Source: Candidatus Rifleibacteriota bacterium (GTDB lineage: Bacteria > Muiribacteriota > Ozemobacteria > Ozemobacterales > Ozemobacteraceae). From it: a DNA stretch of 64,000 nucleotides. Location of the stretch: the NCBI GenBank assembly GCA_012517355.1, contig JAAYVD010000005.1, forward strand, positions 1-64,000, in the 5' to 3' direction. This document shows positions 6,839 through 25,171 of this stretch, piece by piece; the stretch's first letter is position 1; every line of letters starts with the position of its first letter. Position numbers and translations under genes: made by a program. The notes beneath the pieces are model-generated. The model did not search any database and had not been told where the DNA came from. It saw nothing but the letters and a program-made list of their open reading frames with translations.

Positions 6839-6876
6839 CGGCAATCTGCCACTCACTTCATTCAAGGAGAAACGTC

Positions 6877-9011: not shown

Positions 9012-9329
9012 TCAAGATACCCGCGGCTGGGAGAGTTGTTCCTCGATCACCCGGAACAACGTTTCCCGCTCGGGCGGCTCGCCGGCGGCCACTTCGACTC
9101 CGTTGACGAAGACGCTGGGGATCTTCTTGAATTTTCCTTTTCCGCTCCGGGCCCTGCGGTAGCCGTCCGTCGGGGTTACCGGGCAGGCGGTCCCAGCTTC
9201 ATACTCGTCGACTCGCAATTGTTCGGGGTATCGCTCCACAGCTTCGCCGACCAACTCCTGGATCGCCCGGCACTTCCGGGTCGGCGGACAGGCCAACAGC
9301 AGTTCAATGCGCATCGGTGTTTGTTTCAC
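9012..9329 (-). CDS. Small thioredoxin-fold protein
   Basis: The 105-aa protein starts at GTG 9329, which overlaps the upstream stop (GTGA) and follows GGAGGAACC. It has a beta strand then LLACPPTRKCRAIQEL, in which Cys14 and Cys20 are separated by five residues rather than the usual two. A cis-Pro-like strand KKIPSVFVNGVEVAAGEPP follows. This is a thioredoxin/glutaredoxin topology with a widened active site; a third Cys is at ~49. It ends the long leftward unit and is translationally coupled to the lipoate-ligase-fold gene. Role unknown. Confidence 0.6.
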   Translation of the reverse strand: MKQTPMRIELLLACPPTRKCRAIQELVGEAVERYPEQLRVDEYEAGTACPVTPTDGYRRARSGKGKFKKIPSVFVNGVEVAAGEPPERETLFRVIEEQLSQPRVS

Positions 9330-10111
9330 GGTTCCTCCAACGCGATCTCCGTCCGGTTCCATGCGGGGTTGCCGTATTTGTGCTTCCGTAACATCTCCGC
9401 CGCTTCCAGGTCCCGGGCCACCAATGGTTCGTGGCGGAACGAAATCGACCGTTCCGCGCCCACGGTGGCGATCAGGGCATCAGCCACGGCCGACGTGGTC
9501 AGCGGCGGCTTCACCCATTGCCGCAACGTGGTCACCCGGTCCCCGATCCGGTCCGCCCCATGCCTTCCCAGCTTCTCTGCGCCCGGGGTCAGCACGGCAC
9601 CCATCGTCTCCAGGTCGGCATCGATGAGCACCGCGCCCGAAACCGACCGGATGCCATACCAGTCTGTCATGGTCAGACCCGCGACTTTCTTCCCGCCTAG
9701 CGTGATGTCGTTTGGTCCCGCAAAGCTGGCTTCCCTGGCCATGCCCAGCCGCTGCAAGGCCTTGACGATCACCCCGCCCCAGGCTTCCAGAACCCCGACA
9801 GGGCTATCTCCCGACTGACCGCATCGCCGGCAGACGATGGAAAACAACAGGCAGTCGCGGTCGCAGTAAATGGCTCCGCCCTCGCTGGGCCGTCTCAGGA
9901 CCGGGATTTCCCGCTTGCGACATTCCCTCAGATTGACTTCCCGGGCGGCTTCCTGCGAAGTGCCAAGCAAAACGCACGGTGACAACCTTCTCAGGACGAG
10001 GGTTTCCGGCGCCGGACCTTCATCGAGCGATCGCCATACTGCTTCCAGGGAAGCAAGATGGAAAACAGGGTCGTCGCTGTCCTCGACGATCAATCGCCAC
10101 GTTTCAGCCAT
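9326..10111 (-). CDS. Lipoate-protein ligase A / biotin-lipoyl transferase family protein
   Basis: The 261-aa protein starts at ATG 10111, overlapping the preceding gene by 8 bp. Motifs of the LplA/LipM fold are present: LVLRRLSPCVLLGTSQ, the RRxSxGG loop as RRPSEGGAIYCD, and the substrate motif GPNDITLGGKKVAGLTM with the catalytic-type Lys. It probably transfers or attaches a lipoyl-like acyl group. No lipoyl-domain substrate (GcvH or E2) is nearby. It lies among thiol-redox proteins and is coupled to DUF5714, so its substrate may be a non-standard lipoylated protein (inference). Confidence 0.8.
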   Translation of the reverse strand: MAETWRLIVEDSDDPVFHLASLEAVWRSLDEGPAPETLVLRRLSPCVLLGTSQEAAREVNLRECRKREIPVLRRPSEGGAIYCDRDCLLFSIVCRRCGQSGDSPVGVLEAWGGVIVKALQRLGMAREASFAGPNDITLGGKKVAGLTMTDWYGIRSVSGAVLIDADLETMGAVLTPGAEKLGRHGADRIGDRVTTLRQWVKPPLTTSAVADALIATVGAERSISFRHEPLVARDLEAAEMLRKHKYGNPAWNRTEIALEEP

Positions 10112-10793
10112 GGTAGGTGCACCCCGCCTTGCAATCGGCCACCCTGGCAAAATGACGGCACCGAACGGCGATCGGCTCCAACGCCAACCCCAGGTCCTCG
10201 CGCAGAAAGACCCAGACGGCCTCGAGCGTTGCCAACGCACTCTGTCGGCAACACCGCCCCCCGGGATGTCGGGCGATGGCCAGCATCGCATTCCCGGATG
10301 CCCTCAGCACCGCCCGCCGTTCCCCGTCACTGACCGGCGTAGCACCGTTGAGCAGGGAAACCACCGCGCCGGCGCTCGCCCCCACCCCGCACAATCCGGT
10401 GTCCGCGCACGAAAGGGCCGGTATCTCGGACAGCCGTCCGATGGCTTTGCGGACAGCATCAGATGCGATGTCCGCCAATCCCCGGTTCCGCAGAACAGCG
10501 ATCAAAACCGGCATCAAAACGAAATGAAACTGTGGTCCGTGACCATGGAAGACCCCATGCGCCGTTACCAGATGCCAGAGAGCGAGGGGGTCGGTTTCCT
10601 TCGATCGTTCGCAGATCCGCGCCACCATTTCGCGCGGGTCAGCCGTCCGGCAGTCCTCGCACACGTAGTGTCCGTTGGCACACCGGAACTCTGCTGGCTC
10701 TTCATTCCCACAGAAAAGGCACCGGTTCTTCCCCGCTGCCTCTTGCCACGGTTCATCACACAACGGGCATCCGCGACCCTTTATCATCGTCAT
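10104..10793 (-). CDS. DUF5714-like cysteine-rich protein
   Basis: This 229-aa protein opens with zinc-ribbon-like cysteines (GCPLCDEPW, CLFCGNEEP, then CANGHYVCEDCR). A helical domain follows with conserved-looking HGHGPQFHFVLMP, ADTGLCGVGASAGAVVSLL and CCRQSALATLEA, and it ends with a Cys/His tail (RCRHFARVADCKAGCTYH). This pattern matches my recollection of DUF5714 proteins, found in anaerobes beside metal or radical enzymes. Function is unknown. Start is ATG 10793 (or ATG 10787). It is 22 bp after fmdE-like and overlaps the lipoate-ligase-fold gene. Confidence 0.65.
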   Translation of the reverse strand: MTMIKGRGCPLCDEPWQEAAGKNRCLFCGNEEPAEFRCANGHYVCEDCRTADPREMVARICERSKETDPLALWHLVTAHGVFHGHGPQFHFVLMPVLIAVLRNRGLADIASDAVRKAIGRLSEIPALSCADTGLCGVGASAGAVVSLLNGATPVSDGERRAVLRASGNAMLAIARHPGGRCCRQSALATLEAVWVFLREDLGLALEPIAVRCRHFARVADCKAGCTYHG

Positions 10794-10815
10794 TCTTTCT
10801 CAACAACCATCCCGA

Positions 10816-11553
10816 TCACCTGGGCATGTCTTTGTTGATGATGTCCCCCCGTTGCCCGAAAAGATCGTTGGCCTTGAAAACGAACCCTGGGCGTGGCGTC
10901 AGCTCCAGCAACTCCCCCGGCGGGGTCGATACCAGCCGCCGGATCAGGTTTTCCGCAACCTTTTCGAAAGCATCTATCTCAACGGCGGTCACGGGCTTCC
11001 CTGCGGCCCGTTGATGCTTCATGGCCGCTTCCATGTCTGTCTGTTCCTGGGTGAAAATGCCTGGTTTCAGCCGCACTTCCCACGCTTCCCCCGTCGAGAT
11101 CCGCTGGACGATGAACCCATCCCCGATATCGTTCTGCAGGCGCATCGTCTGGAAGTTGATCCGCGCCCCGGTCATGAACGCGGCCGTATCCGCCCAGCAC
11201 GGCCCGTTCTTCGAGACCACCTGCACATCGGTGCGGTCCACGATCCCGTCGGGAAAGAGCTTCCCCAACACCGCCTTCAACTGCACGAAGGCGCTGACCA
11301 TACCGTCGCACAGGTGCCCGTGCACCCTGGCCAGGTCTTTCAGCCCGAGCTCCTTCACCCCGAGCGAATACCGCCCCAGGGCGCTGTCGGTGTCGCGGAC
11401 CAGGATCGGCCCGACGAACGGGGAACTGGCCACCCATGCCGGATAGAACCAGTCGGGGGTGTTGTCGGTCGCGGCCACCGTCGGCCCGGCCAGGAGGCCG
11501 GACCCCAGGCCGATCAGCAGAACCGTCAGGGCGAGGCACGTGGAATACCGCAT
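10816..11553 (-). CDS. Exported FmdE-family protein
   Basis: The 245-aa protein starts at ATG 11553 behind AAGGAGCGG. It has a signal peptide (LALTVLLIGLGSGLLAGPTVAA). The FmdE core is clear: VHGHLCDGMVSAFVQLKA, the DRTDVQVVSKNGPCWADTAA metal-site region, and a C-terminal alpha/beta part. FmdE was named from formylmethanofuran dehydrogenase, but exported bacterial versions are common and of unknown function, probably binding metal through His/Cys. Gap to ArsF-like upstream 107 bp; to DUF5714 downstream 22 bp. Confidence 0.8.
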   Translation of the reverse strand: MRYSTCLALTVLLIGLGSGLLAGPTVAATDNTPDWFYPAWVASSPFVGPILVRDTDSALGRYSLGVKELGLKDLARVHGHLCDGMVSAFVQLKAVLGKLFPDGIVDRTDVQVVSKNGPCWADTAAFMTGARINFQTMRLQNDIGDGFIVQRISTGEAWEVRLKPGIFTQEQTDMEAAMKHQRAAGKPVTAVEIDAFEKVAENLIRRLVSTPPGELLELTPRPGFVFKANDLFGQRGDIINKDMPR

Positions 11554-11660
11554 GGTCCGCTCCTTTCCACCCACCTTCGAGCACGCTGGTCGAAGGCGGA
11601 GAACCCTTCCGAACGTCCGCGAGCCGGGCTCGCCAATGGGGGCTTTCCCCGTGATTCCGG

Positions 11661-12179
11661 TCATTGGCGCTGACCTCCTGCCAACCCTTGGGGAAGGTAT
11701 TTCCTGATGGCATCCCCGACGTATTTCTCGAACGCCGCCGGATCGTCCATCAGCGCGGAGATTTCATCCAGCCGCTGGAAATCGCCTTCCTTGCCGTCTT
11801 TGACCTGGACGACCACGACACAATTGATCTGGGCGCCAAATCGTTGGCCCAGGTCGGCTTCCTTCTGGAAATCAGCCACTTTCCATTCAATTCTTCCCTG
11901 CTCCAATGCCTCCTTGAATTGCGATTCCAGAAGGGAGCGGGTCATATCTTCGGTCGTCTTGCACGTGACGCAACGGAACGTGGGATGGAGATAATGCACG
12001 ATCACCTGCACCTGCCCCACCGTTTCGGATGCCAGGACCGGCAAGGGGGCCGGGGTCGAGGTCTCGGAGCCCGGTCGGGCAGCGTCGCCCCCGCAGAAGG
12101 CAACCCCAGCGGTGAGGAAGGCCAAGGTGAGCAGGAGGGATGTGAACCGAAGGCGACGTTTGCCAACCTGAGGTGTCAT
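11661..12179 (-). CDS. ArsF-family exported thiol protein
   Basis: This 172-aa protein starts at ATG 12179 after GAAGGG. It has a lipoprotein- or secretion-type leader (LLLTLAFLTAGVAFCGG, with Cys near a plausible lipobox). After a Pro-rich linker it shows VQVIVHYLHPTFRCVTCKTT, a strand-loop with CxxC typical of proteins annotated as 'nitrophenyl compound nitroreductase subunit ArsF family'. A second strand INCVVVVQVKDG follows. Role unproven; the thioredoxin-like CxxC and the exported location suggest periplasmic redox relay. Confidence 0.75.
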   Translation of the reverse strand: MTPQVGKRRLRFTSLLLTLAFLTAGVAFCGGDAARPGSETSTPAPLPVLASETVGQVQVIVHYLHPTFRCVTCKTTEDMTRSLLESQFKEALEQGRIEWKVADFQKEADLGQRFGAQINCVVVVQVKDGKEGDFQRLDEISALMDDPAAFEKYVGDAIRKYLPQGLAGGQRQ

Positions 12180-12213
12180 GATGCCCTTCTCCTTTTCCAT
12201 GGCTGATCGGCCC

Positions 12214-13431
12214 TCATTTCGGCGAACACTCGCCGATCTTGCAGGCCTTTTGGACCTGCCCGGGAGAGAGCGCCATCTTGTCCCGCAGCGACTGCTCGAT
12301 GGTGATGGCCTCTCCCGTCTCCAGGGGGTGCTGTTCCACCCACTTTTTGAGATTCTCTTCGTTCACGAAGAACCCCTGGTGGAAGCACCCGGCCGTGACG
12401 AACTTGCCTTCGGCATTCTTTCGCTTGCCGAACCAGGCCACCGCCGTCTTGGGCTCGATGGAGGACACGTAGCCCCCCAGGGTCTTCACGGTCACCGGCT
12501 CGCCGGTGAGGCCGTCGGGCTGGTGGACCTCGAGATCCTTTCCCGTTCGCACCGCGCAACCCATGGCGCAATGCGCGCAGCATCCCCAACTGTACAACCC
12601 GTCGATCTTGACCAATGCCACGTCTTCGGGGTAGACGGCGCGGTCGCAGAACCCGCACCGGTTGGCCAGTTCCTTCCGCTTCAGCACTTCGTAGCCGACG
12701 ATGCTCCCGCCTTCCGCCTGACGAACTTTTTCCGCTTCGGCCCGTTCGGCAAATGCCTTCACCGTCGGTCGGCCGGTCTTCTCTTCCATGCCGTACAGGA
12801 AGGTCGCGGTCAGGGCCGGAATCGGCTTGCCGCTGACGGCATCGGCGATCTCGGCGGCCTTTTCCGTGGCCTCGACATCCTTCTGCAGGCACGAAAGCAT
12901 GACGAACAGGTGATGGGCGGAACACAGGTGGACCTTCCCTTTCTCCGTGGGCACCGTGACCATGGTCTTCGGATCGACATCGCCGTCGCACATGAAGCAG
13001 ACCTGGTCCTTCGGCCGCTCGTCCTTTGCGGCTGCTTCCAGGCGCTTGAAGGTCGGTCCGAAGGCGTTCAGGTCCGCGCCGAGTTCCTTCCACTTGAGCA
13101 GGATCCCGTGCTTGGAAATGAATCCCTCATGACGCCACACTTCCTTCCCGGTCGCATCGAAGAAAATCTGGGTGGGAATCATGTTGATCCGGTGTTTCTC
13201 GGCCAACGGCAGGTTCTCTTTCTCGCCGACGGCGACGAACTCCACCTGGAGCTTTCCCGCTTGTTCGGCCTTCAATTCGGCCAGGGCCGGGGCCATCAGC
13301 TGGCAGGGAATGCACACCTTGTCGCCGAAATCCACCACCTTGGGCAGACCATTCAGGTCAGCCGCCACCAACGCGCCGGCCCCCAACCACACCAGGATCA
13401 CACACACACCGATCACCAATTTGTGGCCCAC
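12214..13431 (-). CDS. Exported thioredoxin fused to a cysteine-rich domain
   Basis: The 405-aa product starts at GTG 13431, seven bases after AGGAGG. A signal sequence (LVIGVCVILVWLGAGALVAA) precedes a thioredoxin domain: VVDFGDKVCIPCQLMAP (CxxC) and IPTQIFFDATGKEVWRHEGF. From residue ~150 on lies a cysteine-rich region: VCFMCDGDVDPKT, HLCSAHHLF, then CGFCDRAVYPEDVA, WGCCAHCAMGCAVR and TAGCFHQGFFVNEEN. The latter looks NosL/TRASH-like, suited to soft-metal binding. It shares its thioredoxin signature with the gene at 23,915-24,481. It may deliver electrons to, or chelate, metal(loid)s in the periplasm (inference). Confidence 0.7.
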   Translation of the reverse strand: MGHKLVIGVCVILVWLGAGALVAADLNGLPKVVDFGDKVCIPCQLMAPALAELKAEQAGKLQVEFVAVGEKENLPLAEKHRINMIPTQIFFDATGKEVWRHEGFISKHGILLKWKELGADLNAFGPTFKRLEAAAKDERPKDQVCFMCDGDVDPKTMVTVPTEKGKVHLCSAHHLFVMLSCLQKDVEATEKAAEIADAVSGKPIPALTATFLYGMEEKTGRPTVKAFAERAEAEKVRQAEGGSIVGYEVLKRKELANRCGFCDRAVYPEDVALVKIDGLYSWGCCAHCAMGCAVRTGKDLEVHQPDGLTGEPVTVKTLGGYVSSIEPKTAVAWFGKRKNAEGKFVTAGCFHQGFFVNEENLKKWVEQHPLETGEAITIEQSLRDKMALSPGQVQKACKIGECSPK

Positions 13432-13504
13432 GTCTCTTCCTCCTGTCGCTTCTAGAATGAATTTCGAATTCGTCACAACCCGATGCATGGTTCGACGGGT
13501 CGGA

Positions 13505-14407
13505 TCAACAGCAGTGCCCCGAGCCCAGAGAGCAGGCCGAGGCCTCGACCAACCGTTCGATCTGAATCGTGGCATGTTCGATCCCGAACCGATGGTGCAG
13601 GTCGGCCGCGATGTCGGGCAGAAACAGTTCATCCGTTGCCGTATCCTGCCGGACGAGATGGACGGTCAAGACCGCTTCGGTGGTGCTCATCCCCCAGATG
13701 TGGAGATCATGGATCCGAATGACCCCGGGAAGGGCGTTGAGAAAGGCGGTCACGGCTTCGAGGTCGATGCCGTCGGGAACGCCATCGAGGGATAGATGCA
13801 GGGATTCGCGGAACAGGCCCCAGGTGCCCACGGCAATGACCACGATGACCACCAAGCTGACCAGGGGATCGATCCAGAGCTTTCCGGAATAGAGAATGGC
13901 CAGACCGGCAACGACCACGCCCAGGGAAACGACGGCATCCGCCACCATGTGCAGGAAGGCCCCGCGAACATTGAGATCGTCTTTCCGGCCCGAGGCGAAC
14001 AGCCAGGCGGTGAGGCCGTTGATCCCAATCCCGATGGCGGCCACGATGATCACGGTCCAGCCGGCCACCGGGGTCGGGGAGAGGAGGCGGCCGATCGCTT
14101 CCCAGGCAATTCCGCCGATGGCCAAAAAGAGCAGCAGGGAATTGAAAAGAGCGGCCAGGATCGACGAGCGCCGCAGCCCATACGTGTGTTTTGCGGTCGA
14201 TGGCCGCCGGGAAACCCCATGGGCAGCCCAGGCCAGCAGCAGGCCCAGGACGTCGCCCAGATTGTGCCCCGCATCGGCGAGCAAGGCCAGCGAATTGGCG
14301 CGCAGGCCATATCCAGCCTCGATCAGAACGAAACCGACATTCAAGGCCACTCCCAAAGCAAAGATCCGGCCGAAGTCCGGAGGCGCGTGCTCGTGCTGAT
14401 GAACCAT
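13505..14407 (-). CDS. czcD: CDF-family cation efflux transporter (CzcD/ZitB-like)
   Basis: The 300-aa protein has six TM helices and the CDF metal-site motifs: LALLADAGHNLGDVLGLLLA in TM2 and LHMVADAVVSLGVVVAG in TM5 (the HxxxD/DxxxD pairs). A His-containing N-terminus (HQHEHAP) and a C-terminal cytoplasmic domain with HDLHIWGM are present. It exports Zn2+ or Co2+/Cd2+ against proton influx. The tail ends GSGHCC, adding a possible metal-binding site. It is 11 bp after the RND-OMF gene and part of the same metal-efflux operon. Confidence 0.92.
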   Translation of the reverse strand: MVHQHEHAPPDFGRIFALGVALNVGFVLIEAGYGLRANSLALLADAGHNLGDVLGLLLAWAAHGVSRRPSTAKHTYGLRRSSILAALFNSLLLFLAIGGIAWEAIGRLLSPTPVAGWTVIIVAAIGIGINGLTAWLFASGRKDDLNVRGAFLHMVADAVVSLGVVVAGLAILYSGKLWIDPLVSLVVIVVIAVGTWGLFRESLHLSLDGVPDGIDLEAVTAFLNALPGVIRIHDLHIWGMSTTEAVLTVHLVRQDTATDELFLPDIAADLHHRFGIEHATIQIERLVEASACSLGSGHCC

Positions 14408-14418
14408 GGTGTATCCTC

Positions 14419-17400
14419 CTACCGAACCGCCAGGTCAAGAGCGATCTGGGCGGCCAGCAGCTCGTTCCGGGAACGGATGACCTGTCCCTGAGCCTGGAAC
14501 ATGGCCGACTCGGCGTCGAGAACGTCGTTGATCGTTCCTTTGCCTTGCTCGTATTTCGCCCGCTCGATGCGGAAGGCTTCCTCGGCCAGCGTCAGGTTGG
14601 CCTGGTTCCGCTCCAGACGGACGCGGGCCGAGCGCAGATTGGCACACACGGTCCGGACTTGTTCGGCCGCCTTCAATTCGGCTTGGCGGAGCCTGGCCTC
14701 TGCGGCTTGACGCTGGGCCGTGGCCTGGGTGGTTTTCCCCCGGTTGCGGCCTCCGTCCTCCAGGGTCCACTGGAATTCGGCCCCGACAAAACCGATTTCC
14801 CGGCCCCACCCGGTCCGATCCCCGTAGCGGTTGACCGTGGCGTTGAGAAAGACCTGCGGGTTCTTTCCGTGGCGCTGCGCCGTCTCAGCCCGCTTTCCGC
14901 CGGCCACGGCATACCGCAGCGCCGCCAGGTCGGCCCGCTGCGACAACGCCGCTTGCACGAGGGCCTCCGGGTCGGAAGCCAGATCGGCGGAGTAGGCCGG
15001 CAGCCCTTCCGGGGTGAGCCCCCCGATGGATTCCCGACAGCCCACCAACGAAGAGAGCCGCGCCAGGATGTTGGCCCGGGTCTGGCGGAACCCTTCCTGG
15101 GTTTCCAGCACTTCTTGAACCCGGGCCTGGATTCTCAACACATCGACATGGGGAACCCGGCCAACCGCCTCCATCGCCTCCATTTTCGCCAGGGTGGCGC
15201 GGATGTCGACCAGGGTTTTGTCCGCCGCCTCCAACAGCGCTTCCGCGGTGAACACCCCCAGGGCGTTGACCAGCACATCGGCGGCGACTTCGTCGCGGGT
15301 CCGCTGCAGTTGCGCTTCTTTGCTCTTGACGTTCAGGCCGGCGGCGGTCTTCCGATCACCCGTCTGGTTGCCGTCCCACAAGAGTTGCCGCAAGGTGAGA
15401 CGGAACTCGGTCAGGTCGTGGTCGTAGAACTGGCGCTCGGTGGGCGCGATGCCGAGCATCCCGACTCTTTTTCGGTCCCATTGGCGCCAGGCGCCCGCCG
15501 TGTCGATCTGCGGGCGGGCGGCGGCCCCGGCCTCCTGTCGCGCCCCGACCGCCCCCAGGCGCTCGGCTTCCATGCTTTCCAGCAGGGGCGAGTTTTTCTG
15601 CGACAGATCCAGGCACTCCTGGACGCTCAGGGTTTTGCCGCAGGGATCGGTGGCCTGGACGACGGCCGCTTTGCGTTGCGCCAAACTGGCGTTTGGCGCC
15701 CCGTCCGTGGGGCCAAGCGGCACTTCCGCACATCCTGTGCGGTCGGGATCACGTCCCGAAGCCGCCATCGTCAATTCCCGTGAGAAAGGAACCGGTTCCG
15801 GGGGAATCGTGACGGGAGCTTCCGCCGATGCCACCAGTGGCGGGTGACTTGGATCATCGACGCGGGAATCCGGCAGGCCCTGGGCGAAACCGGTAGCGGC
15901 GATCAGGAGCCCGGCCACCACGGCGACCGTCGTCGTGGCCGCGGGTTTGCCACTCGGCAAGGGGTTCCCGAAAAGCCGACCGAACCTTCCCTGCAGCCAG
16001 GTTCCCCAATCCGTCACGAGATCGTACAGCACCGGGATGATGACCAGGGTCATGAGCGTGCCTCCTGTCAATCCGCAGCTGGCGACCACGCCCAGCGGCG
16101 AAAGTCGCTCGAGGCCGACCGCCTGCTCGAAGGTCAGCGGCAGCAGGCCGAGCACGGTCGAAAACGTGGTGATGAAGATCGGCCGGAGCCGGACGCGGAC
16201 GCTGTCGAACAGGGCTTCGCGTTTGTCGATCCCGCGACCCCGCGCCTGCTCGATGAAATCGATCAGGATGATGGCGTTGTTGACGATCGTGCCGCCCAAC
16301 AGAATGAACCCGTTCAAGGCCGGCAGACACATGGGCTTGTCGAAAATGACCAGGCCCCAGAAGCCCCAGATCAGGGCCAGGGGAATGGTCGCCATGACCA
16401 CGAGCGGCTGCCACCAGGTTTCGAACAGCAGCAACAGAACGAGATACAGGAAGACCAGACCCGGCTTGAGAGCCACCCCCCGCCGCTCGCCGGCTTCCGC
16501 CATGTCGGCGGGGGTTCCGGTCAGGCGCGCGGAATAGCCCGGGGGAAAAGGAAAGCCCTCGATCACCTTCTTCACGTCGGCGGCCACCGCCGAGATCGGC
16601 CGATCGGCGTTGATGCCCAGCAGATCGAGCGTCTGCTCGAGGTTCTCGCGTGTCAGCATCGTGGCCGCCAGGCCCCGTTCCGTTCGGCCGAGGTTGGCCA
16701 GGTCGATATCCATGCCGGGCAGCAGCACAAACAGCCGGCCCAGGGTCTCCTGCCACAAGCGGCCCTGGAAGCCGAGATCCACCCGGACCGGCAGGTCGAG
16801 GAACCCCGCCATCTTCAACTTCGTGGCAATGCGGCCCGAAAAAACCATCTGGAGGAAATCCCCCAGCCGTTTGGGCGTCACCCCGAGCTGCGCCGCCACG
16901 GCCAGGTCGGGATGGAACACCGTTTCGGGCTTGGTGAAGGCCCACTGACGTCGCAGATCACGCAAGCCCTTGATCTGCCGGAGCCGGTCGAGCATCTCTC
17001 CGGCCAGGCCGTCCAGCACCCGGGGGTCGCGGCCCACCAGCATGACGTCGATCGGCGCGCGGGTGGTCGACAGTGGGGTGGCGCCGAACTCGGTGATCGA
17101 AGCCGAGACGATCAGGGGCACGCGGCCCAACTCTTCCCGCCATTGGCTCATGAAATCCCAGATGGTCTTGGCGCGCTGATCGCGGGTCGTGAGCCGGACC
17201 TGGATCTCGGCCTGCTGCAACAACTGACCGCCCGCGCCAAAGCTGATCTGCCCGGCCTCCGCCCCCATCACCGAGGAGATGTCGAGCACGTCGGGTTCAC
17301 GCTTCAGGATCGCCTCGACCTCGCCCAGCACCTTCTCGCACTGCCCGTGGGTCAGCCGGGGCGGCAGGTCGAGACGGATGGTCAGCATCCCGGTGTCCAT

Positions 17401-19101
17401 GCGGGGCATGAGCTCGTTGCCGACCAGGGGAACCGCCAGCTTCACGGTGAACACGAAGGCCGCCAGGCACCCGAGCAGAACCACCACCCGCAGGTTCAGC
17501 GCCAGGCGCAGAAGCCAGAGATAGGCTTCGGCAATGCTGTCCAGCACCCAGGTGACCACGACTTCGAGCGGCCGCATCAGCTTCTGGAAAACCGTCTTGG
17601 TGTTCAGATCCTGGGGGGTGGAGGTGCCGAAAAACCACTTCATCAGGATCGGGACGATGGTCAGTGCCGCCAGGAACGAGCCGATGAGCGTCGTGGAGAT
17701 GGTCAGCGACAGCGGCCGCAGCGTGCGCTGCACGTAGCCGCCGGTGAACATCAGCGGGACCAGGACGACGATCGTGGTGAGCATGCCGCCGAAGATCGAA
17801 AAGACGACTTCCGAGGTGCCGCCGGGCACCGCGGTTTCTCCGGGTTCTCCTTCGCTCACGCGCCGAAAGATGTTCTCGACCACGACGATCGAGGCGTCGA
17901 CCACCATGCCGACGGCGATGATCAGGCCGGAGAGCGTGACCATGTTGAGCGTGTACCCGGAAAAGAACAGGTAGGCGAAGGTGGTCAAAAAGGAACACGG
18001 GATGGAAATGCCGATGATGAGCGCCGTGCGCCATTCCAGGAGCATGACGAAAACGATCACCATGGTCAACCAGATGGCGGAGAAAAGCGAGCCCGTCATG
18101 CCCGCGAAGTTCTTGTCGATGATCGGCTGCTGGTCTGTCGTGAAGCTGAAGGCCAGGTGCGGGAACTGTTCCTGCAGGGCGGGCATGGCGTTCTTGACGG
18201 CGAGAATGCCTTCGAGGGAGTTGCCGCCCTCCGGTTTCAGCACGTTCATGGCGATGGCCGGTTCGCCCTGGCCGTGGTAGATGCTGCGCGGGGTCTTCAT
18301 CGCCAGGGAGACCGAGGCGACATCGGCCAGGCGCACGATGCCGCCCCTGGCGACCCGGATCGGGACCCGCCCCAGTTGCTGGGGGGTGACGGCCTCGGAC
18401 AGCGTGCGCACGAGGGTTTCCCCTTCCGGGGTTTCCTGATAGCCGCCGGGGACGGAGAGGTTCGACGCCCCGATGATCGTCAGGACCGCTTCCGGATTCA
18501 GGTCGTATTCGCGCAGGCGGCCATGGTCGAAGCGGATGGCGACTTCGGCCTCGTGCGCCCCGAAGACATCGACCCGTCCGATGCCCGGCAGGCGCAGGAT
18601 CCGTTCTTTCAGGTCGTTCTCGACCACCTGCCGGACGCCGATCAGGTCGAGCAGCCCCGGATCCTTCGCCCGCACCGCCAGGGTCAACAGGGGGCGGTTG
18701 GCCTCGGTGATGCGGAACAACTGCGGCTCGTCGACCCCGGCCGGGAACTGCCGTCTGGCCTTGGAAACGGCGGTCAGGACGTCGTTGACCGCTTCGCCGA
18801 GATCCTTTTCGTAGTGGAACTCGGCGTTGATCGAGGAGATTTCATCCTTCGAGGTCGCGGTGACCTTCTTCAGGCCCGAAATGCCTTTGATTTCCCGGTC
18901 GAGAATGGTCGTCACCAGGCGGTTGACATCGTCGGCCGAAGCGCCGCGCATGGTGGTGACGACAGCCACCTGGGGCGGGGTGGTGTCGGGAAACAGGTCG
19001 CGCGGCACGCCGTAGAAGCCCATGAGGCCCAGAACCACCACGAGCAGCCAGAAGACGAACGTGTAGATCGGACGCTTGACGACGGTATCGAGCCAATTCA
19101 T
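14419..19101 (-). CDS. RND efflux pump fused in frame to a TolC-like outer-membrane factor
   Basis: The 1560-aa ORF is uninterrupted. Residues ~1-1045 are a complete HAE1-type RND pump: N-terminal TVVKRPIYTFVFWLLVVVLG, two porter loops, GMVVDASIVVVENIF in TM4 (one Asp of the usual DD pair) and ITTFSTVLGLLPLTF in TM10-11. After the last TM, residues ~1055-1072 form a further hydrophobic stretch (VAVVAGLLIAATGFAQG) with a signal-peptidase-like end. A ~75-residue Pro-rich linker and then a TolC/OEP domain (SVQECLDLSQKNSPLLES to RNELLAAQIALDLAVR) follow. No internal ribosome site is evident. Normally these are two proteins. The adaptor is encoded upstream with a 4-bp overlap. Confidence 0.88.
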   Translation of the reverse strand: MNWLDTVVKRPIYTFVFWLLVVVLGLMGFYGVPRDLFPDTTPPQVAVVTTMRGASADDVNRLVTTILDREIKGISGLKKVTATSKDEISSINAEFHYEKDLGEAVNDVLTAVSKARRQFPAGVDEPQLFRITEANRPLLTLAVRAKDPGLLDLIGVRQVVENDLKERILRLPGIGRVDVFGAHEAEVAIRFDHGRLREYDLNPEAVLTIIGASNLSVPGGYQETPEGETLVRTLSEAVTPQQLGRVPIRVARGGIVRLADVASVSLAMKTPRSIYHGQGEPAIAMNVLKPEGGNSLEGILAVKNAMPALQEQFPHLAFSFTTDQQPIIDKNFAGMTGSLFSAIWLTMVIVFVMLLEWRTALIIGISIPCSFLTTFAYLFFSGYTLNMVTLSGLIIAVGMVVDASIVVVENIFRRVSEGEPGETAVPGGTSEVVFSIFGGMLTTIVVLVPLMFTGGYVQRTLRPLSLTISTTLIGSFLAALTIVPILMKWFFGTSTPQDLNTKTVFQKLMRPLEVVVTWVLDSIAEAYLWLLRLALNLRVVVLLGCLAAFVFTVKLAVPLVGNELMPRMDTGMLTIRLDLPPRLTHGQCEKVLGEVEAILKREPDVLDISSVMGAEAGQISFGAGGQLLQQAEIQVRLTTRDQRAKTIWDFMSQWREELGRVPLIVSASITEFGATPLSTTRAPIDVMLVGRDPRVLDGLAGEMLDRLRQIKGLRDLRRQWAFTKPETVFHPDLAVAAQLGVTPKRLGDFLQMVFSGRIATKLKMAGFLDLPVRVDLGFQGRLWQETLGRLFVLLPGMDIDLANLGRTERGLAATMLTRENLEQTLDLLGINADRPISAVAADVKKVIEGFPFPPGYSARLTGTPADMAEAGERRGVALKPGLVFLYLVLLLLFETWWQPLVVMATIPLALIWGFWGLVIFDKPMCLPALNGFILLGGTIVNNAIILIDFIEQARGRGIDKREALFDSVRVRLRPIFITTFSTVLGLLPLTFEQAVGLERLSPLGVVASCGLTGGTLMTLVIIPVLYDLVTDWGTWLQGRFGRLFGNPLPSGKPAATTTVAVVAGLLIAATGFAQGLPDSRVDDPSHPPLVASAEAPVTIPPEPVPFSRELTMAASGRDPDRTGCAEVPLGPTDGAPNASLAQRKAAVVQATDPCGKTLSVQECLDLSQKNSPLLESMEAERLGAVGARQEAGAAARPQIDTAGAWRQWDRKRVGMLGIAPTERQFYDHDLTEFRLTLRQLLWDGNQTGDRKTAAGLNVKSKEAQLQRTRDEVAADVLVNALGVFTAEALLEAADKTLVDIRATLAKMEAMEAVGRVPHVDVLRIQARVQEVLETQEGFRQTRANILARLSSLVGCRESIGGLTPEGLPAYSADLASDPEALVQAALSQRADLAALRYAVAGGKRAETAQRHGKNPQVFLNATVNRYGDRTGWGREIGFVGAEFQWTLEDGGRNRGKTTQATAQRQAAEARLRQAELKAAEQVRTVCANLRSARVRLERNQANLTLAEEAFRIERAKYEQGKGTINDVLDAESAMFQAQGQVIRSRNELLAAQIALDLAVR

Positions 19102-20354
19102 CGGCGCTCACCGTCCTTTACGGTGAGACGTTCGGGCAGGCGGGCATACTCGAGGTAGCCCAGGCGGAGCAACCGGCTGCCGGCAGGCAGGACGCCGGGG
19201 TCGACCACCGCTTCCCCCCGATCGGTCAGCAAGAGCGGCGACAGGGGCAGCCGGCGCGCGGTCTCACCGCTGACCAGATACACGGCGACCGTGTCGGGGG
19301 TTGCGGTGGCATTGGGCGGCTGGAAGAAGCTGTCCGCCGGGATGATCGTTCCCGAGGCCTCGGCGATGACGATGTTGACCGCATACTGGCGCTCGAAGTC
19401 GGGATTGGCGAGGGGCGCGGTCGATTCCGCTTCCACGGTTCTCTGATACAGATCGTTGCCGGTCGGGTAGATGCGGGAAAGGACGAACCCGGCCGCGACG
19501 AGGTTCCCGGTGCCGTCGGTGGTGACGCGCTGGCCGACCCGTAGGTCGTCGACATACTGCTGGGGAACCTGCATGACCAGGCGACAACTTCGCGTGTCTT
19601 CCATCTGGTACAGGACGGAGGCCGGGGTGACGTAGTTGCCCACTTCCTGGACCCGGGCGCTGATGATGCCGGTCACCGGGGCCACGACCTCGGCATAGCG
19701 GTTGCGCACTTTCCACAGGGCGACGGTTTGCGCCGCCGCATCCTTCTGGGAGGCGACCGCCTGCTTTTGCGCCCGGGACGCCTCGATCTGGGCGTCGAGG
19801 GCGGCCAGCTTGCCCTGGGCCTCGGCAAACTTGTTCGCCGTGGCTTCCCACTGCGCCTTCGACAGGGCGCCTTGCTCGAACAGCGTGCGATCGCGCTCCT
19901 GCTCCGACCGCCAGAACCGCTCGTTGGCCACCAGGGCCGGCCGCTGGCTCGACAGCGACCGGATCGTCTCTTCCGCCGCCCTGGTCTGCTTTTCGACCGA
20001 GCTCGACTGGGCGCCCGCCACGTTCAACTGGGCTTGCAGTTCATCGCCTTCGATGCGGGCGATCACTTCCCCGGCGGTTACCTGGTCGCCCTCGCGCTTG
20101 TTCAGAAACACGAGTCTGCCCGCCGTCTCGGGCATGACTTTCACGGTGGCGTGGCTTTTCAGGGTGGCCAGCGCGGGCAGGGTGCGAGCGCCGGTTCCCG
20201 CGGCAACGGCCAAAAACTGCATGGCCGACTGGGTGGCCGTGCTCTTCGGCGCGTTGTCCTGCCGGGTCTTGATTGCATGGAAGCTCTTCCAGGCGGCTCC
20301 GGCGAAAACGGCGAAACAGACGATGGTGATCAGAATGCCGACCAGCCTTTTCAT
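19098..20354 (-). CDS. RND periplasmic adaptor (membrane-fusion protein)
   Basis: The 418-aa protein has an N-terminal anchor (LVGILITIVCFAVFAGAAW), a lipoyl-like half (VKVMPETAGRLVFLNKREGD ... GEVIARIEGDELQAQL), a long alpha-helical hairpin (residues ~110-190, many Ala/Gln/Glu) and the second lipoyl half (APVTGIISARVQEVGNYV). Beta-barrel and membrane-proximal domains follow. It bridges the inner-membrane RND part and the outer-membrane channel. Its stop overlaps the pump's ATG, consistent with stoichiometric production; the TetR gene is 4 bp upstream. Confidence 0.92.
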   Translation of the reverse strand: MKRLVGILITIVCFAVFAGAAWKSFHAIKTRQDNAPKSTATQSAMQFLAVAAGTGARTLPALATLKSHATVKVMPETAGRLVFLNKREGDQVTAGEVIARIEGDELQAQLNVAGAQSSSVEKQTRAAEETIRSLSSQRPALVANERFWRSEQERDRTLFEQGALSKAQWEATANKFAEAQGKLAALDAQIEASRAQKQAVASQKDAAAQTVALWKVRNRYAEVVAPVTGIISARVQEVGNYVTPASVLYQMEDTRSCRLVMQVPQQYVDDLRVGQRVTTDGTGNLVAAGFVLSRIYPTGNDLYQRTVEAESTAPLANPDFERQYAVNIVIAEASGTIIPADSFFQPPNATATPDTVAVYLVSGETARRLPLSPLLLTDRGEAVVDPGVLPAGSRLLRLGYLEYARLPERLTVKDGERR

Positions 20355-20358
20355 GAGG

Positions 20359-21003
20359 TTACTCCTTGGAACCCTTGCGGGATACGTTCTTTTTTGTGGA
20401 ATGAGCGGCAGGTGGGTTCTTGAAGCAACGGATCAAGAACGTGACGGACCGCATCAGCTTCGTTTGCATTCCTTCGGCATCCTGATTCAGCGTCCACTGC
20501 AGGACCGTGCTTTGCACGGCCCCGAGCACGGTGGCGGTGGCGATGTCGGGATCGAGCCCGGCGCCGAACGACCGGTCGGCGATGCCTGCCCGGACCAGTT
20601 GGCGAATGGCCAGGCCGAGAGCGGAAGCGATGTGCTGCAAGGTGTTCCGGAGGGACGATTGCCCGGGGTCCGTCGCATCGGAAAGGAGGAGGATCGGGTT
20701 GAACTGCCTTTCCAGGAGATACGAAAGATGGAATCTCGCCAACGCTGCCAGGCGCTCGGCGGGAGAAGCTTTCGTGGCGATCACCTTCTGGACCCCGTCT
20801 TCCCACCCTTGGAACTGTTGTTCCAACAACCTCAGCAACAGCTCCTCCTTGCTGGGGAAATGGCGGTAGACGGCCGCTTCACTGATCTGCACCCGCTCGG
20901 CCAGACGCCGGATGGTAAAGCGCGAACTGCCCTCCGTAAAGATCAGGTCCCGTGCCGCATCCAGGAGTTCGGCCTTGCGATCCCGCCCGGCGATTTTCGG
21001 CAT
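20359..21003 (-). CDS. TetR/AcrR-family repressor of the efflux operon
   Basis: The 214-aa protein has the TetR N-terminal HTH: ELLDAARDLIFTEGSSRFTI then RRLAERVQISEAAVYRHFPS and KEELLLRLLE. The C-terminal ligand domain is variable, as usual. It is the first gene of the leftward unit and its start (ATG 21003, after GGAGGGGCGT) lies 11 bp from a palindromic operator, so it should autoregulate together with the pump. Confidence 0.92.
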   Translation of the reverse strand: MPKIAGRDRKAELLDAARDLIFTEGSSRFTIRRLAERVQISEAAVYRHFPSKEELLLRLLEQQFQGWEDGVQKVIATKASPAERLAALARFHLSYLLERQFNPILLLSDATDPGQSSLRNTLQHIASALGLAIRQLVRAGIADRSFGAGLDPDIATATVLGAVQSTVLQWTLNQDAEGMQTKLMRSVTFLIRCFKNPPAAHSTKKNVSRKGSKE

Positions 21004-21013
21004 ACGCCCCTCC

Positions 21014-21065
21014 GTTAGTAATCGTTAACCAACATAAAGGTATGCCATTTTCCCGCCTTTGTCAA
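21014..21065 (-). promoter_or_regulatory. Promoter and TetR-type operator for the efflux unit
   Basis: On the minus strand: -35 TTGACA (21060-21065), 17-bp spacer, -10 TACCTT (21037-21042). Between promoter and start lies an inverted repeat GTTA-N8-TAAC (21014-21029), a typical short TetR operator. This would drive the ~12-kb leftward gene series ending at 9012. Confidence 0.7.
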
Positions 21066-21355
21066 CTGTGTTCTGTGGACCACCCACAAGGAGTCTCTGC
21101 CGCCCATCGGGCCATCAACGCTTCCGGCCCAGGGCGAACGTCGGGGCCGGCGGGCCGAACGAAACTGCCCGGATCGGAGGCCCCGGTCATCCGAGGGCCG
21201 AACCCAGGTCGGCGGCCAATGGCCTGCTCGTCCCGGGTGGCTCCTGGCCCAGGACGGGAACCAGAAGACGCAGGCTCGGTGCGCTCACCGCCAGGAGCCA
21301 TCCAAACCACGACGACCGCCGCCACCCCGTCCGCCGGACGTCCCGTCCGACGCGC
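21066..21355. other. Intergenic stretch, nothing recognised
   Basis: This 290-bp GC-rich gap separates the 3' end of the ArsR-led operon from the TetR promoter. Open frames on both strands have no homology-like features and low-complexity Arg/Pro/Gly composition. A small inverted repeat near 21,340 (CGGACG/CGTCCG type) may end the leftward operon. I see no gene. Confidence 0.5.
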
Positions 21356-22822
21356 TCACCCATAAAACGCGCCGAACAGCATGCCGACGACCGTGGCCAT
21401 GACGATGACGAGGCTGACGAAGACGACCGTCTTCTTCGCGCCCATGATCTGATTGATGACCAGCATGTTGGGCAGCGACAGAGCCGGGCCGGCCAGCAGG
21501 AGGGCGAGGGCCGGGCCTTTCCCCATGCCGCTGCCGATGAGCCCCTGCACGATCGGGACCTCGGTGAGCGTGGCAAAATACATGAAGGCGCCGAAGACCG
21601 AGGCGAACAGGTTGGCGAACAGGGAATTGCCGCCGACCATCGACTTCACCCATTCGCTGGGAATCAGCCCCTCGTGACCCACGCGCCCGAGAAGCAGGCC
21701 GGCGACCACCACCCCGCCCAGCAACAGCGGCAGGATCATCTTGGCGTTGTCCCAACTGGCGCCGAACCAGTCCTTCGCCTCATCGGCCGCGGTCGAGGTC
21801 ATGGCACTGAGCGCCACCGTCACCGCCACGAAGGGCACCAACGGGTCCGCGGGCGCGGCCAGATAGCCGGCCACTCCGGCCGCCGCCGTCACCCCCACCC
21901 GCCACCAGGCCATCTTCATGAGCGTGCCGAGAATGATCAGCAAGGCCACCGCGAAGACGGCGGTGATCGCCCATTTGTTGCTCCAGAGGGTTTTCCAGGG
22001 GCTGTCGGGGATGGTGCGTTGGGTGATCTCGGCCAACGGCACCGCCTGCACCGTGGCCGGCGCCCAGTCACGCCCTGTTACCGCCGCGATCTTGACCTTG
22101 AGCTCGGCGCTTCCTTCGATCTCTTCTTGGACGTCACCGACAATCACGGCGCCGTCCCGCAGGGTCAGCTCGACGCTCTGGGGCTTGCCCCAGTTGGCGA
22201 AGACCAGAACGCCGATCATGGCCGCGAAGAAGACGATGTTGTGCCACAGCGGCCGGACGTTCTCCGGTTCCGGCAGCTGCGCCGCCGCCAGGGCTTTGGC
22301 CTGTTCCTCCTCGCGGAAGATCAGGTGCATGAGCAGGCCGATGACGACGCTGAACCCGATGGCCCCCACCGCCCGGGCGACGCCGATGTCCATGCCCAGG
22401 ATGCGCGCGCTCATGACGATGGCCAGGATGTTGATGCCCGGCCCTGAATAGAGAAAGGCGCAGGCCGGCCCGAGCCCGGCGCCCATCTTATAGATGCCGT
22501 TGAACAGGGGCAGGACGGTGCAGGAACAGACGGCCAGGATGGAACCGGAGACCGACGCCACCCCGTAGGCCAGGGGCTTGCTGGCATTGGGCCCCAGATA
22601 CTTCATGACCGAGGCCTGGCTGATGAAGATGGTGATCGCCCCGGCGATGAAGAAGGCGGGCACCAGGCACAGCAGGACGTGCTCGCGGGCATACCACTTG
22701 ATCAGGTGCAGGGCTTCCATGATCGCGTTGTCGAACCGCGGCGTGCCGATCGGCAGAAAATAGCAGCCGAGAAACACGGCGATCATCGCCAGCAGGGTTT
22801 TCCATTCATCTTTCCAGTTCAT
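21356..22822 (-). CDS. COG0701-family permease (long form)
   Basis: The 488-aa membrane protein has about ten TM segments. The family signature appears as GSILAVCSCTVLPLFNGIY (residues ~92-110), and a repeat-like second half contains FMYFATLTEVPIVQGLIGSG. A central ~90-residue soluble insertion (ELTLRDGAVIVGDVQEEIEG) separates the halves. COG0701 members include ArsP and YraQ-type permeases; together with CcdA and thioredoxins this type is frequent in anaerobes. Substrate unknown; a reduced thiol, metalloid or sulfur species is plausible. Start ATG 22822 follows GAGGAA. Confidence 0.85.
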   Translation of the reverse strand: MNWKDEWKTLLAMIAVFLGCYFLPIGTPRFDNAIMEALHLIKWYAREHVLLCLVPAFFIAGAITIFISQASVMKYLGPNASKPLAYGVASVSGSILAVCSCTVLPLFNGIYKMGAGLGPACAFLYSGPGINILAIVMSARILGMDIGVARAVGAIGFSVVIGLLMHLIFREEEQAKALAAAQLPEPENVRPLWHNIVFFAAMIGVLVFANWGKPQSVELTLRDGAVIVGDVQEEIEGSAELKVKIAAVTGRDWAPATVQAVPLAEITQRTIPDSPWKTLWSNKWAITAVFAVALLIILGTLMKMAWWRVGVTAAAGVAGYLAAPADPLVPFVAVTVALSAMTSTAADEAKDWFGASWDNAKMILPLLLGGVVVAGLLLGRVGHEGLIPSEWVKSMVGGNSLFANLFASVFGAFMYFATLTEVPIVQGLIGSGMGKGPALALLLAGPALSLPNMLVINQIMGAKKTVVFVSLVIVMATVVGMLFGAFYG

Positions 22823-22957
22823 GACTCATTCCTCGATTGATGGTCCGGGTCCGGCAGCCGACCCCGAATTCGGGGCAGGCAAAACCCTGCGGGCCGTCAG
22901 GGGCCCGCCAGGCTCCGCCTGTCTGCTGTCGGGAAGCCGCTCCTGCGGGCGAGGCCC

Positions 22958-23647
22958 TCAGGAACGCACGAAATAGATGCCTACACCGATGATCAATACG
23001 CCGGCGATTTTCTTGATGACGGTCACCGCCTTGGTCATTCCCTTGGAGTCGGCCAGGGCTTGCACGGTTCCGACCGAAATGCCCGCCACCAGGATCAACA
23101 CCGAGTGCCCGAGCCCATACAGGAAGAGGAGAGTGCCGGCTTTCGGGATGCCTATTTCCGGCACGAGGCTGGCCAACAGCATCAACACAGGCCCGGAACA
23201 CGGCATCGAGACGAGCCCGAACATGAATCCAAGCACCGTCACGCCGAGAATGCCACCCCACTTCCCCGCCGGCATGTTGGCCAGCGCCGGGATCTGGAAC
23301 TCGAACAGCAGGTGCAGGCCGAGCAGGAAACAGATCACGGCGATCACGTATTTCCAGTGCGGGCCGCTCAGGTAGGGGGCGAAGGCCGCCGAGACCGAGA
23401 ACAGAACCGTCAGCTCGAGGGCGAAGCCGACCACGAAGAAGAAACTGAACCCGGCGGCGCGCTTCCAGGCCCCTTCCCCCTGCGCGTAGCCGCCGACGAC
23501 GCCGATGATGAGCGGCACCGTGGCCAGGACGCAGGGGTTGAGAGCGGTCAGGACTCCGCCGCCGAAGGCGGCCGCCGGGGCCAGCCAACTGGAGCTGGCG
23601 ATGACATCGGCCAACTGGGACTCGAGTCCGGCAAGGTCCATCGTCAT
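22958..23647 (-). CDS. ccdA: CcdA/DsbD-type thiol-disulfide transmembrane protein
   Basis: This 229-aa protein (start ATG 23647, after CAGGAGAC) has six or more TM helices. The paired transmembrane cysteines of the CcdA family are present as GVLTALNPCVLATVPLI and GLVSMPCSGPVLMLL. CcdA moves electrons from cytoplasmic thioredoxin to periplasmic thiol proteins. The flanking genes supply a cytoplasmic-type small thioredoxin and an exported thioredoxin, so a complete relay is encoded. It overlaps the 2Fe-2S gene by 4 bp. Confidence 0.9.
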   Translation of the reverse strand: MTMDLAGLESQLADVIASSSWLAPAAAFGGGVLTALNPCVLATVPLIIGVVGGYAQGEGAWKRAAGFSFFFVVGFALELTVLFSVSAAFAPYLSGPHWKYVIAVICFLLGLHLLFEFQIPALANMPAGKWGGILGVTVLGFMFGLVSMPCSGPVLMLLASLVPEIGIPKAGTLLFLYGLGHSVLILVAGISVGTVQALADSKGMTKAVTVIKKIAGVLIIGVGIYFVRS

Positions 23648-23901
23648 GTCTCCTGTCCGCGGCAGCAGGCGCACGTGGCGGTCCCCGCGGCACCGATCTC
23701 CCGTTCGAGCAGCTCCAGGATGTCGGGCACGCAGCAGCGCTTCTTCGGGTTGGTCTCGTGGCAGCGGTTGCCGCGACCGGCCCCCGTCGATTCCTGAATG
23801 GACTTCAGATCACGGGCGCCGTTTCGGATGGCGGCGACGATGGTTCGCTCGTCCACCTGCTGGCAGTAGCAGATCATGTGCCTTGGCTCGTTTTCGCCCA
23901 T
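23644..23901 (-). CDS. BFD-like (2Fe-2S)-binding protein
   Basis: The 85-aa protein contains MICYCQQVDERTIVAAIRNG and GAGRGNRCHETNPKKRCCVP, the CxC ... CxxxxxxxxxC arrangement of bacterioferritin-associated-ferredoxin (Fer2_BFD) domains. The C-terminus has additional cysteines (TCACCRG). It is probably an electron carrier or sensor in the ArsR-led operon. Confidence 0.75.
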   Translation of the reverse strand: MGENEPRHMICYCQQVDERTIVAAIRNGARDLKSIQESTGAGRGNRCHETNPKKRCCVPDILELLEREIGAAGTATCACCRGQET

Positions 23902-23914
23902 GGCCGACCCTTCC

Positions 23915-24481
23915 CTATTCCTTCTTCAGCGAAACGCCCATGCTTTCGAACTGTTTCTGGATGTCTTCCATGGGGAAGAACCCTTCGTGCCGGAAGACCT
24001 CCTTCCCCGTGGCGTCAAAGAAGATCTGGGTCGGGATCATCCGGATGCCGTATTGAGGCCCCATGGAAGGGTTCTCCCACACGTCGATGAATTCGACGTT
24101 GGCGCGGCCCTCGTAGAGTTTTTTCGCCTCTTCCAGGATCGGCGCCATCTTCTTGCAGGGGATGCACTTTCCCGCTCCGAGATCGACCAGCTTGGGCAAA
24201 GGGCTGGCGGCCGGCGCCACGGCAGGAACCGAGGCGTCGACGGTGTCCGGCGTCGTGGTGGCCGGCGTGGCCTCCGTCGTTCCAGGGGCCGGCGCCGCCG
24301 GTTCGGTGGTCCCGGTGCCAACGAGGTCCGTGGCAGGGGATTCCGAAGCCACCGCGGTGACCTGGGCGAAGGCGGCCCCACGACTGCATGAGCAGGTGGG
24401 CGTGCGACCAGGGTTCATGGCGCCAGCCAGCAAAGCCCCAACGACCAGAACAAGAGCACCGAAGCGAATGAAGGATTGCAT
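23915..24481 (-). CDS. Exported thioredoxin
   Basis: This 188-aa protein (start ATG 24481, SD GGAGAG) has a signal peptide (FIRFGALVLVVGALLAGAM), a Cys pair (TCSCS), a long Ala/Thr/Pro linker (residues ~35-95) and a thioredoxin domain with LVDLGAGKCIPCKKMAP (CIPC) and IPTQIFFDATGKEVFRHEGF. It is paralogous to the thioredoxin domain of the 12,214-13,431 protein. It should receive electrons from CcdA, 267 bp downstream. Confidence 0.85.
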   Translation of the reverse strand: MQSFIRFGALVLVVGALLAGAMNPGRTPTCSCSRGAAFAQVTAVASESPATDLVGTGTTEPAAPAPGTTEATPATTTPDTVDASVPAVAPAASPLPKLVDLGAGKCIPCKKMAPILEEAKKLYEGRANVEFIDVWENPSMGPQYGIRMIPTQIFFDATGKEVFRHEGFFPMEDIQKQFESMGVSLKKE

Positions 24482-24504
24482 GTTCTCTCCTTGGCCAGCC
24501 ACGA

Positions 24505-24924
24505 TCAGCTACAACAGCCTGATCCTGGAATGTTGCTGCTCTTCTTTGAGATCCGGGCGAGCTCCTTGCGACAGGCGGAAACGGTCTCGTCGATCTGGTG
24601 GGCGGGGGTCTTGTTCACGTTGTGCTCTTTCTTGATGCCCAGCGCGGTGACATCGACATACCCGTACCCTTGCAGGCCCAGGTGGTCGACGATCTTCTTC
24701 CCGCAGGCAATGGAGCACCCATCGATGACCAGCACCGGCACTCCCGAAGCAGCCGATGCCACCATTCCAGGCACGTGACCCCCAAGGCCGGCCAGGCATC
24801 CCATGACGGCATCACCTGCCGAGTCAAGGGCCTTGCCCGCCTCCACGGTCAACTGACCGACGTTCGAACCGCCGGCGCAGACGTAGATGAGGCCTTTGCC
24901 GTCATTCTTGCAACAATCGCTCAT
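24505..24924 (-). CDS. DGC-domain putative zinc-binding protein
   Basis: The 139-aa protein starts at ATG 24924. It opens MSDCCKNDGKGLIYVCAGGS and contains PVLVIDGCSIACGKKIVDHL, the DGC motif that names this family, and ends in a CC pair. Members carry several conserved cysteines and occur near thioredoxins and permeases; no activity is established. It lies in the ArsR-led operon between two thioredoxins. Confidence 0.8.
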   Translation of the reverse strand: MSDCCKNDGKGLIYVCAGGSNVGQLTVEAGKALDSAGDAVMGCLAGLGGHVPGMVASAASGVPVLVIDGCSIACGKKIVDHLGLQGYGYVDVTALGIKKEHNVNKTPAHQIDETVSACRKELARISKKSSNIPGSGCCS

Positions 24925-24940
24925 GGGATTCCCGGCTCCT

Positions 24941-25171
24941 CTACGACAACATCTTCTTGATCTCGTCGACGGACGGCACCTTCCCGGCGACCTTGACCGT
25001 GCCGTCGACCGCCAGGGCCGGGGTGACCATGACCCCGAAGCCCATGATGTCATTGAGGTTCGTCACCTTGACCAGCTCATAGGACAGCTTCAACTCGTCG
25101 GCCGCCTGCTTCGCGGTCTCCGCGAGCTTCTGGCACTTGGCGCATCCAGTTCCCAGGATCTGGATCTTCAT
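24941..25171 (-). CDS. Small thioredoxin (redox-active disulfide protein 2 type)
   Basis: The 76-aa protein is a minimal thioredoxin/glutaredoxin fold: MKIQILGTGCAKCQKLAETA with CxxC at 10/13, VTNLNDIMGFGVMVTPALAV with the cis-Pro, and a C-terminal helix. It matches the small archaeal/anaerobe type of redox-active disulfide proteins. It follows arsR by 13 bp and probably supplies CcdA with electrons. Confidence 0.88.
   Translation of the reverse strand: MKIQILGTGCAKCQKLAETAKQAADELKLSYELVKVTNLNDIMGFGVMVTPALAVDGTVKVAGKVPSVDEIKKMLS

Follow-up and report, generated by a model that had tools for sequence, protein, structure and literature searches.

RND permeases have 12 transmembrane helices and both termini in the cytoplasm. 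A polytopic membrane protein made together with an exported partner is known from the Bradyrhizobium FbcH cytochrome b/c1 polyprotein, which carries an internal signal peptide and is split by signal peptidase. The tripartite pumps AcrAB-TolC and MexAB-OprM comprise the same three component families as the system analyzed here, for which the same 3:6:3 assembly is expected (PMC4754349), but their pump and channel are separate polypeptides, each with its own start and signal. In the assembled pump the RND permease and the outer-membrane channel (OMF) are out of contact, and of the 23 nm between the two membranes the RND part spans 7 nm and the OMF 10 nm (PMC4754349). The N-terminal helix H1 of the OMF sits in the equatorial belt (PMC8277102); we estimate its distance from the inner membrane at roughly 18 nm.

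No description of an RND-OMF fusion was found in the open-access literature searched, which gave limited coverage; a review on tripartite pumps showed none for the terms searched, and a review on adaptors mentioned only fused dimeric adaptors. Here we describe a gene in a 64,000-nucleotide stretch of DNA (the window) from a Candidatus Rifleibacteriota bacterium, available as a draft assembly of 184 contigs, that encodes a putative drug/metal pump of the inner membrane and an outer-membrane channel in one chain with a predicted export signal between them.

Results

Gene organization and operon context

The fusion gene (Table 1) is an uninterrupted ATG-to-stop frame of 1560 aa. A stop-free run of 520 codons has a chance probability of p ~1e-7 at the local G+C, and in-frame GC3 remains at ~0.8-0.9 across both domains, dipping only in the linker (residues ~1081-1140), where codon bias is weak. 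The frame, the Pfam assignments and GC3 all agree with the sequence-only reading, which had claimed a stop-free frame from an RND pump into a TolC domain.

Table 1 Features of the fusion gene and its neighbourhood (positions in the window).
Feature	Position	Strand	Evidence or remark
Fusion gene: RND permease, internal signal, linker and TolC-type OMF	14419..19101	-	Open frame; Pfam ACR_tran and two OEP
RND permease part, residues 1-1032	16006..19101	-	PF00873 at 5-1029; identity to family pumps
Predicted cytoplasmic tail past TM12, residues 1033-1054	15940..16005	-	Alignment: stand-alone pump tails stop here
Internal signal-peptide-like segment, residues 1049-1073 (PSGKPAATTTVAVVAGLLIAATGFA|Q)	15883..15957	-	Hydropathy, basic n-region, small-x-small; heuristic
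Pro/Ala-rich 83-residue linker, residues 1074-1156	15634..15882	-	pLDDT, low GC3, absent from other fusions
TolC-type OMF, residues 1157-1560	14422..15633	-	PF02321 twice; AlphaFold2 topology; Foldseek
Periplasmic adaptor (HlyD/RND-MFP family)	19098..20354	-	PF13437, PF16576; TIGR01730 just under cut-off
TetR-family regulator heading the operon	20359..21003	-	PF00440; kept in relatives
CDF cation efflux protein, 11 bp past the end of the fusion	13505..14407	-	PF01545; position
FmdE	10816-11664	-	Metal/thiol neighbourhood
ArsP-type permease	21356-22822	-	Metal/thiol neighbourhood
Thioredoxin	23915-24502	-	Metal/thiol neighbourhood
DGC domain	24505-25053	-	Metal/thiol neighbourhood
Tyrosine integrase	25831-26841	+	Near the metal/thiol neighbourhood

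On the minus strand the fusion is the third gene, after those of the TetR regulator and the adaptor and before that of the CDF exporter. The adaptor gene, which shares 4 bp with the start of the fusion, is also the upstream neighbour kept in relatives, and same-family relatives have the TetR-adaptor-pump operon, whole or in part. The locus thereby qualifies as a tripartite RND system, with the cognate adaptor encoded beside the fusion. The CDF gene lies outside this conserved core and is probably co-transcribed with the fusion. It is overlapped by a 472-aa frame (12214-13632, minus strand) with a thioredoxin domain and a C-terminal domain resembling MerB (alkylmercury lyase), the true start of which is probably further downstream. 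Metal and thiol functions are abundant on the minus strand around the efflux operon (9326-25053), which may serve metals or organometals.

The pump and channel parts

Pfam ACR_tran (PF00873) covers residues 5-1029 of the fusion with 633.6 bits (gathering threshold 28; 7e-190). This part aligns over its full length with solved RND pumps; 12 transmembrane helices and a cytoplasmic C-terminus are implied for it. Its score with the HME-RND (CusA/CzcA) model TIGR00914 was 310.9 bits, under the cut-off of 701.45, and the curated HAE-1 models NF033617 (529/1250), NF000282 (397.5/1250) and TIGR00915 (367.7/940) likewise gave scores below their cut-offs. Judged by these models the pump is HAE-1-like but outside the named subfamilies, falling below the cut-off of every RND subfamily tested. 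It is 49-58% identical to pumps of its own family, namely stand-alone ones and one that is fused.

The OEP family (PF02321) matched the remainder of the chain in two stretches (159.3 bits against a gathering threshold of 22; 1.2e-46), the better one at residues 1379-1557. When residues 1076-1560 were modelled together with relatives in AlphaFold2, the model reached a mean pLDDT of 81 and its TolC part showed the topology H1-H2-S1-S2-H3-H4-H5-H6-S3-S4-H7-H8, which is the canonical OMF order, while residues 1078-1135 were disordered, with pLDDT < 50 over most of the linker. Foldseek matched the TolC part to TolC, CusC, OprM and VceC with E ~1e-17 to 1e-20 (7e-19 for TolC 1ek9) and TM scores mostly of 0.65-0.72, and the OMF family motifs are retained. 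Because the modelled topology and the Foldseek matches are those of a canonical OMF, the TolC part is complete, in line with Pfam.

Fused and stand-alone relatives

A whole-fusion query on genome contigs returned no relative; a pump-alignment query succeeded. Nine family pumps with a readable C-terminal end are stand-alone, with a stop 10-30 aa past the last helix, and no homologous tolC was found beside any of these nine. A second Riflebacterium (G022) carries a separate 1491-aa fusion, with a pump 54% and a TolC part 39% identical to those of the window. Scanning named genomes with the pump alignment revealed further fusions in the cultured Malonomonas rubra DSM 5091 (L122), in a Desulfuromonadales metagenome-assembled genome (MAG; L123) and in an unplaced MAG (L121), and a search within the order of M. 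rubra added three more (G094, G165 and G166), of which the first two are on contigs the size of a chromosome. Homologous fusions are thus present in seven genomes besides the window, that of G022 and six others. The M. rubra fusion aligns end to end with its relatives at 55-85% identity over 1488 aa. In three pairs of related fusions dN/dS was ~0.31-0.38 through the junction, which indicates purifying selection and a maintained frame. Among the 5000 best-scoring plasmid records there was no whole-length fusion, and the sole record with at least 80% cover holds two genes.

Several long frames were discarded as candidate fusions. Of these, L039 (1401 aa) holds an ordinary TolC in a GC-rich long frame, and G029, G034, G001:C27 and G000:C11 have N-terminal frame extensions without a TolC part. 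A 1528-aa frame in G038:C470 (L089) joins a truncated RND pump in frame to an HlyD-type adaptor, with TolC in another frame; it was not counted and represents either a chimera of the assembly or a fusion of RND pump and adaptor. In G023:C748 (L088) the TolC gene is separate, after a stop. This TolC (5969-7075), of all stand-alone ones the most closely related to the fused parts, has its own signal peptide. Its gene directly follows that of a different RND pump and shares its frame, with one TAA between them, a layout that plausibly represents the arrangement before fusion. The OMF gene of the non-fused distant relatives L107, L112, L113 and L119 lies upstream of the adaptor gene and is lipoprotein-like (lipobox Cys); all fused OMFs carry SPase I-type sites.

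Parsimony on the pump tree calls for three gains of the fused state (in the window, in G022, and in the Desulfuromonadales together with L121). Grouping the pumps of G000 and G022 in one clade was rejected (AU p 5e-5), which leaves horizontal transfer of a single fusion between these genomes unsupported. The fused TolC parts all form one group with the separately encoded TolC of G023, at a non-decisive support of 90, and this group stands apart from those OMFs of distant relatives whose genes lie upstream of the adaptor gene. The fusions go back either to a single ancient downstream OMF that was fused early and then often lost, or to repeated capture of the same type of OMF.

The junction

Signals at the junction were called with heuristic criteria of 12-residue hydropathy and motifs. 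The sequence-only reading had placed a signal-like segment at residues ~1055-1072 of the window's fusion, and the hydrophobic stretch was indeed located at ~1058-1070 (hydropathy maximum 2.57), with a predicted SPase I site (GFA|Q) after A1073. All eight fusions follow one plan past TM12, with a Lys/Arg-bearing tail of ~20-30 residues, a hydrophobic core, a small-x-small motif and the start of mature TolC; the basic n-region, core and cleavage site are each present in 8/8, and hydropathy peaks at 2.2-2.9. The junction reads NKGKRIPVSMGLLLIFTLFSGNQVRA|M in M. rubra and SRKSLAEAAKVAMIFIVFTVSGFSEARA|D in G022. Non-fused pumps have tails of 8-31 aa, which are not strongly hydrophobic save for one from Omnitrophota (2.06). 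By these sequence criteria a cleavable signal is predicted between the two domains.

A linker before the TolC domain had also been claimed. It is present in the window, where ~83 residues separate signal and TolC; in the other seven fusions only 2-9 residues do so. No positionally conserved start codon was found at the junction among the fusions, and that of G094 has none at all before the hydrophobic core, which makes internal initiation unsuitable as a general explanation.

Proposed maturation and alternatives

We consider it probable that the fusion is a precursor polyprotein whose internal signal exports the TolC part, which SPase I then frees, the channel being made 1:1 with the pump. The ribosome would translate the 12-helix permease straight on into the OMF, and the C-terminal tail of the permease would be left in the cytoplasm. 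Since both termini of RND permeases are cytoplasmic, a signal after TM12 would be correctly oriented for export, and the basic and hydrophobic segment could enter the Sec translocon in the usual N-in orientation and act as an internal signal peptide, with the TolC part passing into the periplasm. SPase I, for which the window's genome has two genes, would cut past the small-x-small motif, in the window after A1073. The RND part would keep its place in the inner membrane, extended by a short tail that is probably a single helix. The freed OMF would trimerise and insert in the outer membrane, and six copies of the adaptor from the adjacent gene would bridge the RND and OMF trimers. One channel would be made per pump from the same message, which may be the benefit of the arrangement. 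Because RND and OMF occur 3:3 in the assembled pump (PMC4754349), a 1:1 polyprotein fits; the six-copy adaptor is a separate gene and its stoichiometry is not fixed by the fusion. Given linkers of 2-9 residues in 7/8 fusions and the lack of RND-OMF contact, the OMF would be functional only if cut free. The earlier suggestion that the TolC part crosses via the internal signal and is probably cleaved therefore gains support at the sequence level, from the signal plan of all eight fusions and from seven linkers too short for an uncleaved product.

Among the alternatives, initiation at the signal itself, giving a separate TolC beside the full fusion, is unlikely. A TTG at residue 1048 of the window (15960-15958) would yield a normal signal peptide and an ATG lies near the equivalent place in G022 and G165, but the TTG has no Shine-Dalgarno motif, the position of a start is not conserved, and ribosomes arriving from upstream must read into TolC anyway. 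It is likewise unlikely that in the window's organism the chain stays uncut, with the segment forming a 13th transmembrane helix while the linker spans the periplasm, so that pump and channel are covalently joined. The linker, disordered and found only in this fusion, could cover ~29 nm when extended, exceeding the ~18 nm at which the TolC equator is estimated to lie from the inner membrane. Against such a tether, the small-x-small site is present and the linkers of the relatives are all too short, so that the mechanism shared by the fusions would have to be cleavage.

A TolC part that is a non-exported passenger of a degenerate fusion, with another TolC serving the pump, is very improbable: its fold is complete, the family motifs and the signal are kept, and it is under purifying selection in relatives. 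In favour of this reading are several more OEP-family proteins in the genome, and the stand-alone pump relatives, which have no neighbouring homologous tolC and must therefore use one in trans. Hardly credible, finally, is an artefact in which an error erased a stop and a start between two separate genes, as the sequence-only reading had cautioned. The assembly of the window is a draft, the G022 contig has a low coverage of 3.2x and a related TolC is kept as a separate gene in G023. However, the same plan occurs in seven other genomes, including two chromosome-sized contigs and one cultured type strain, three related pairs hold the frame over the junction under purifying selection (dN/dS 0.31-0.38), and the only signal peptide available to the TolC part is the one joined to the pump.

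Discussion

A search for other fusions, advised together with the sequence-only reading, yielded the seven further genomes and also CusA/CzcA-OMF fusions of Bacteroidota, so the window's gene is no singular oddity and the same architecture recurs in other phyla. The latter come from a Bacteroidota-like order (the order of G238), recognized by its SusD-like proteins and searched with TIGR00914. Of the ~150 best matches listed, all but ~24 have frames 1368-1497 aa long; Pfam found ACR_tran and OEP twice in the three long frames checked, and the six inspected directly have the junction plan of the window's fusion. Among the top-scoring matches in this order, CusA/CzcA pumps are mostly OMF-fused (L154-L159). 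Judging from these sequence data, RND-OMF fusion is common for HME pumps.

If cleavage is confirmed, tripartite pumps would have a built-in 1:1 production of pump and exit channel from one message. Because the junction pattern is common to two separate clades of RND pumps from several phyla, maturation through an internal signal that follows the final transmembrane helix may be a general route, and apparently one not yet described. For annotation, 'RND permeases' of 1450-1560 aa should be regarded with caution, as they conceal an outer membrane channel.

The M. rubra and Desulfuromonadales fusions (L122, L123, G094, G165 and G166) and that of L121 share with the window's the pump clade, the TolC clade, the junction plan and the upstream adaptor. 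They differ in pumps that are only ~42-45% identical to the window's, in linkers of 2-9 residues and, by parsimony, in a separate gain. The Bacteroidota CusA/CzcA-OMF proteins (L154, L156 and L158) resemble the window's fusion in combining ACR_tran and two OEP in one chain, of ~1460 aa, and in the succession of tail, basic residues, hydrophobic core, ...SAQ-type site and TolC. They are HME-type, with TIGR00914 scores well above the cut-off, whereas the window's pump (311 vs 701 bits) belongs to another RND clade; the 83-residue linker and the host phylum are further differences. FbcH works like the proposed RND-OMF polyprotein, but the proteins are unrelated and both FbcH products stay in the inner membrane.
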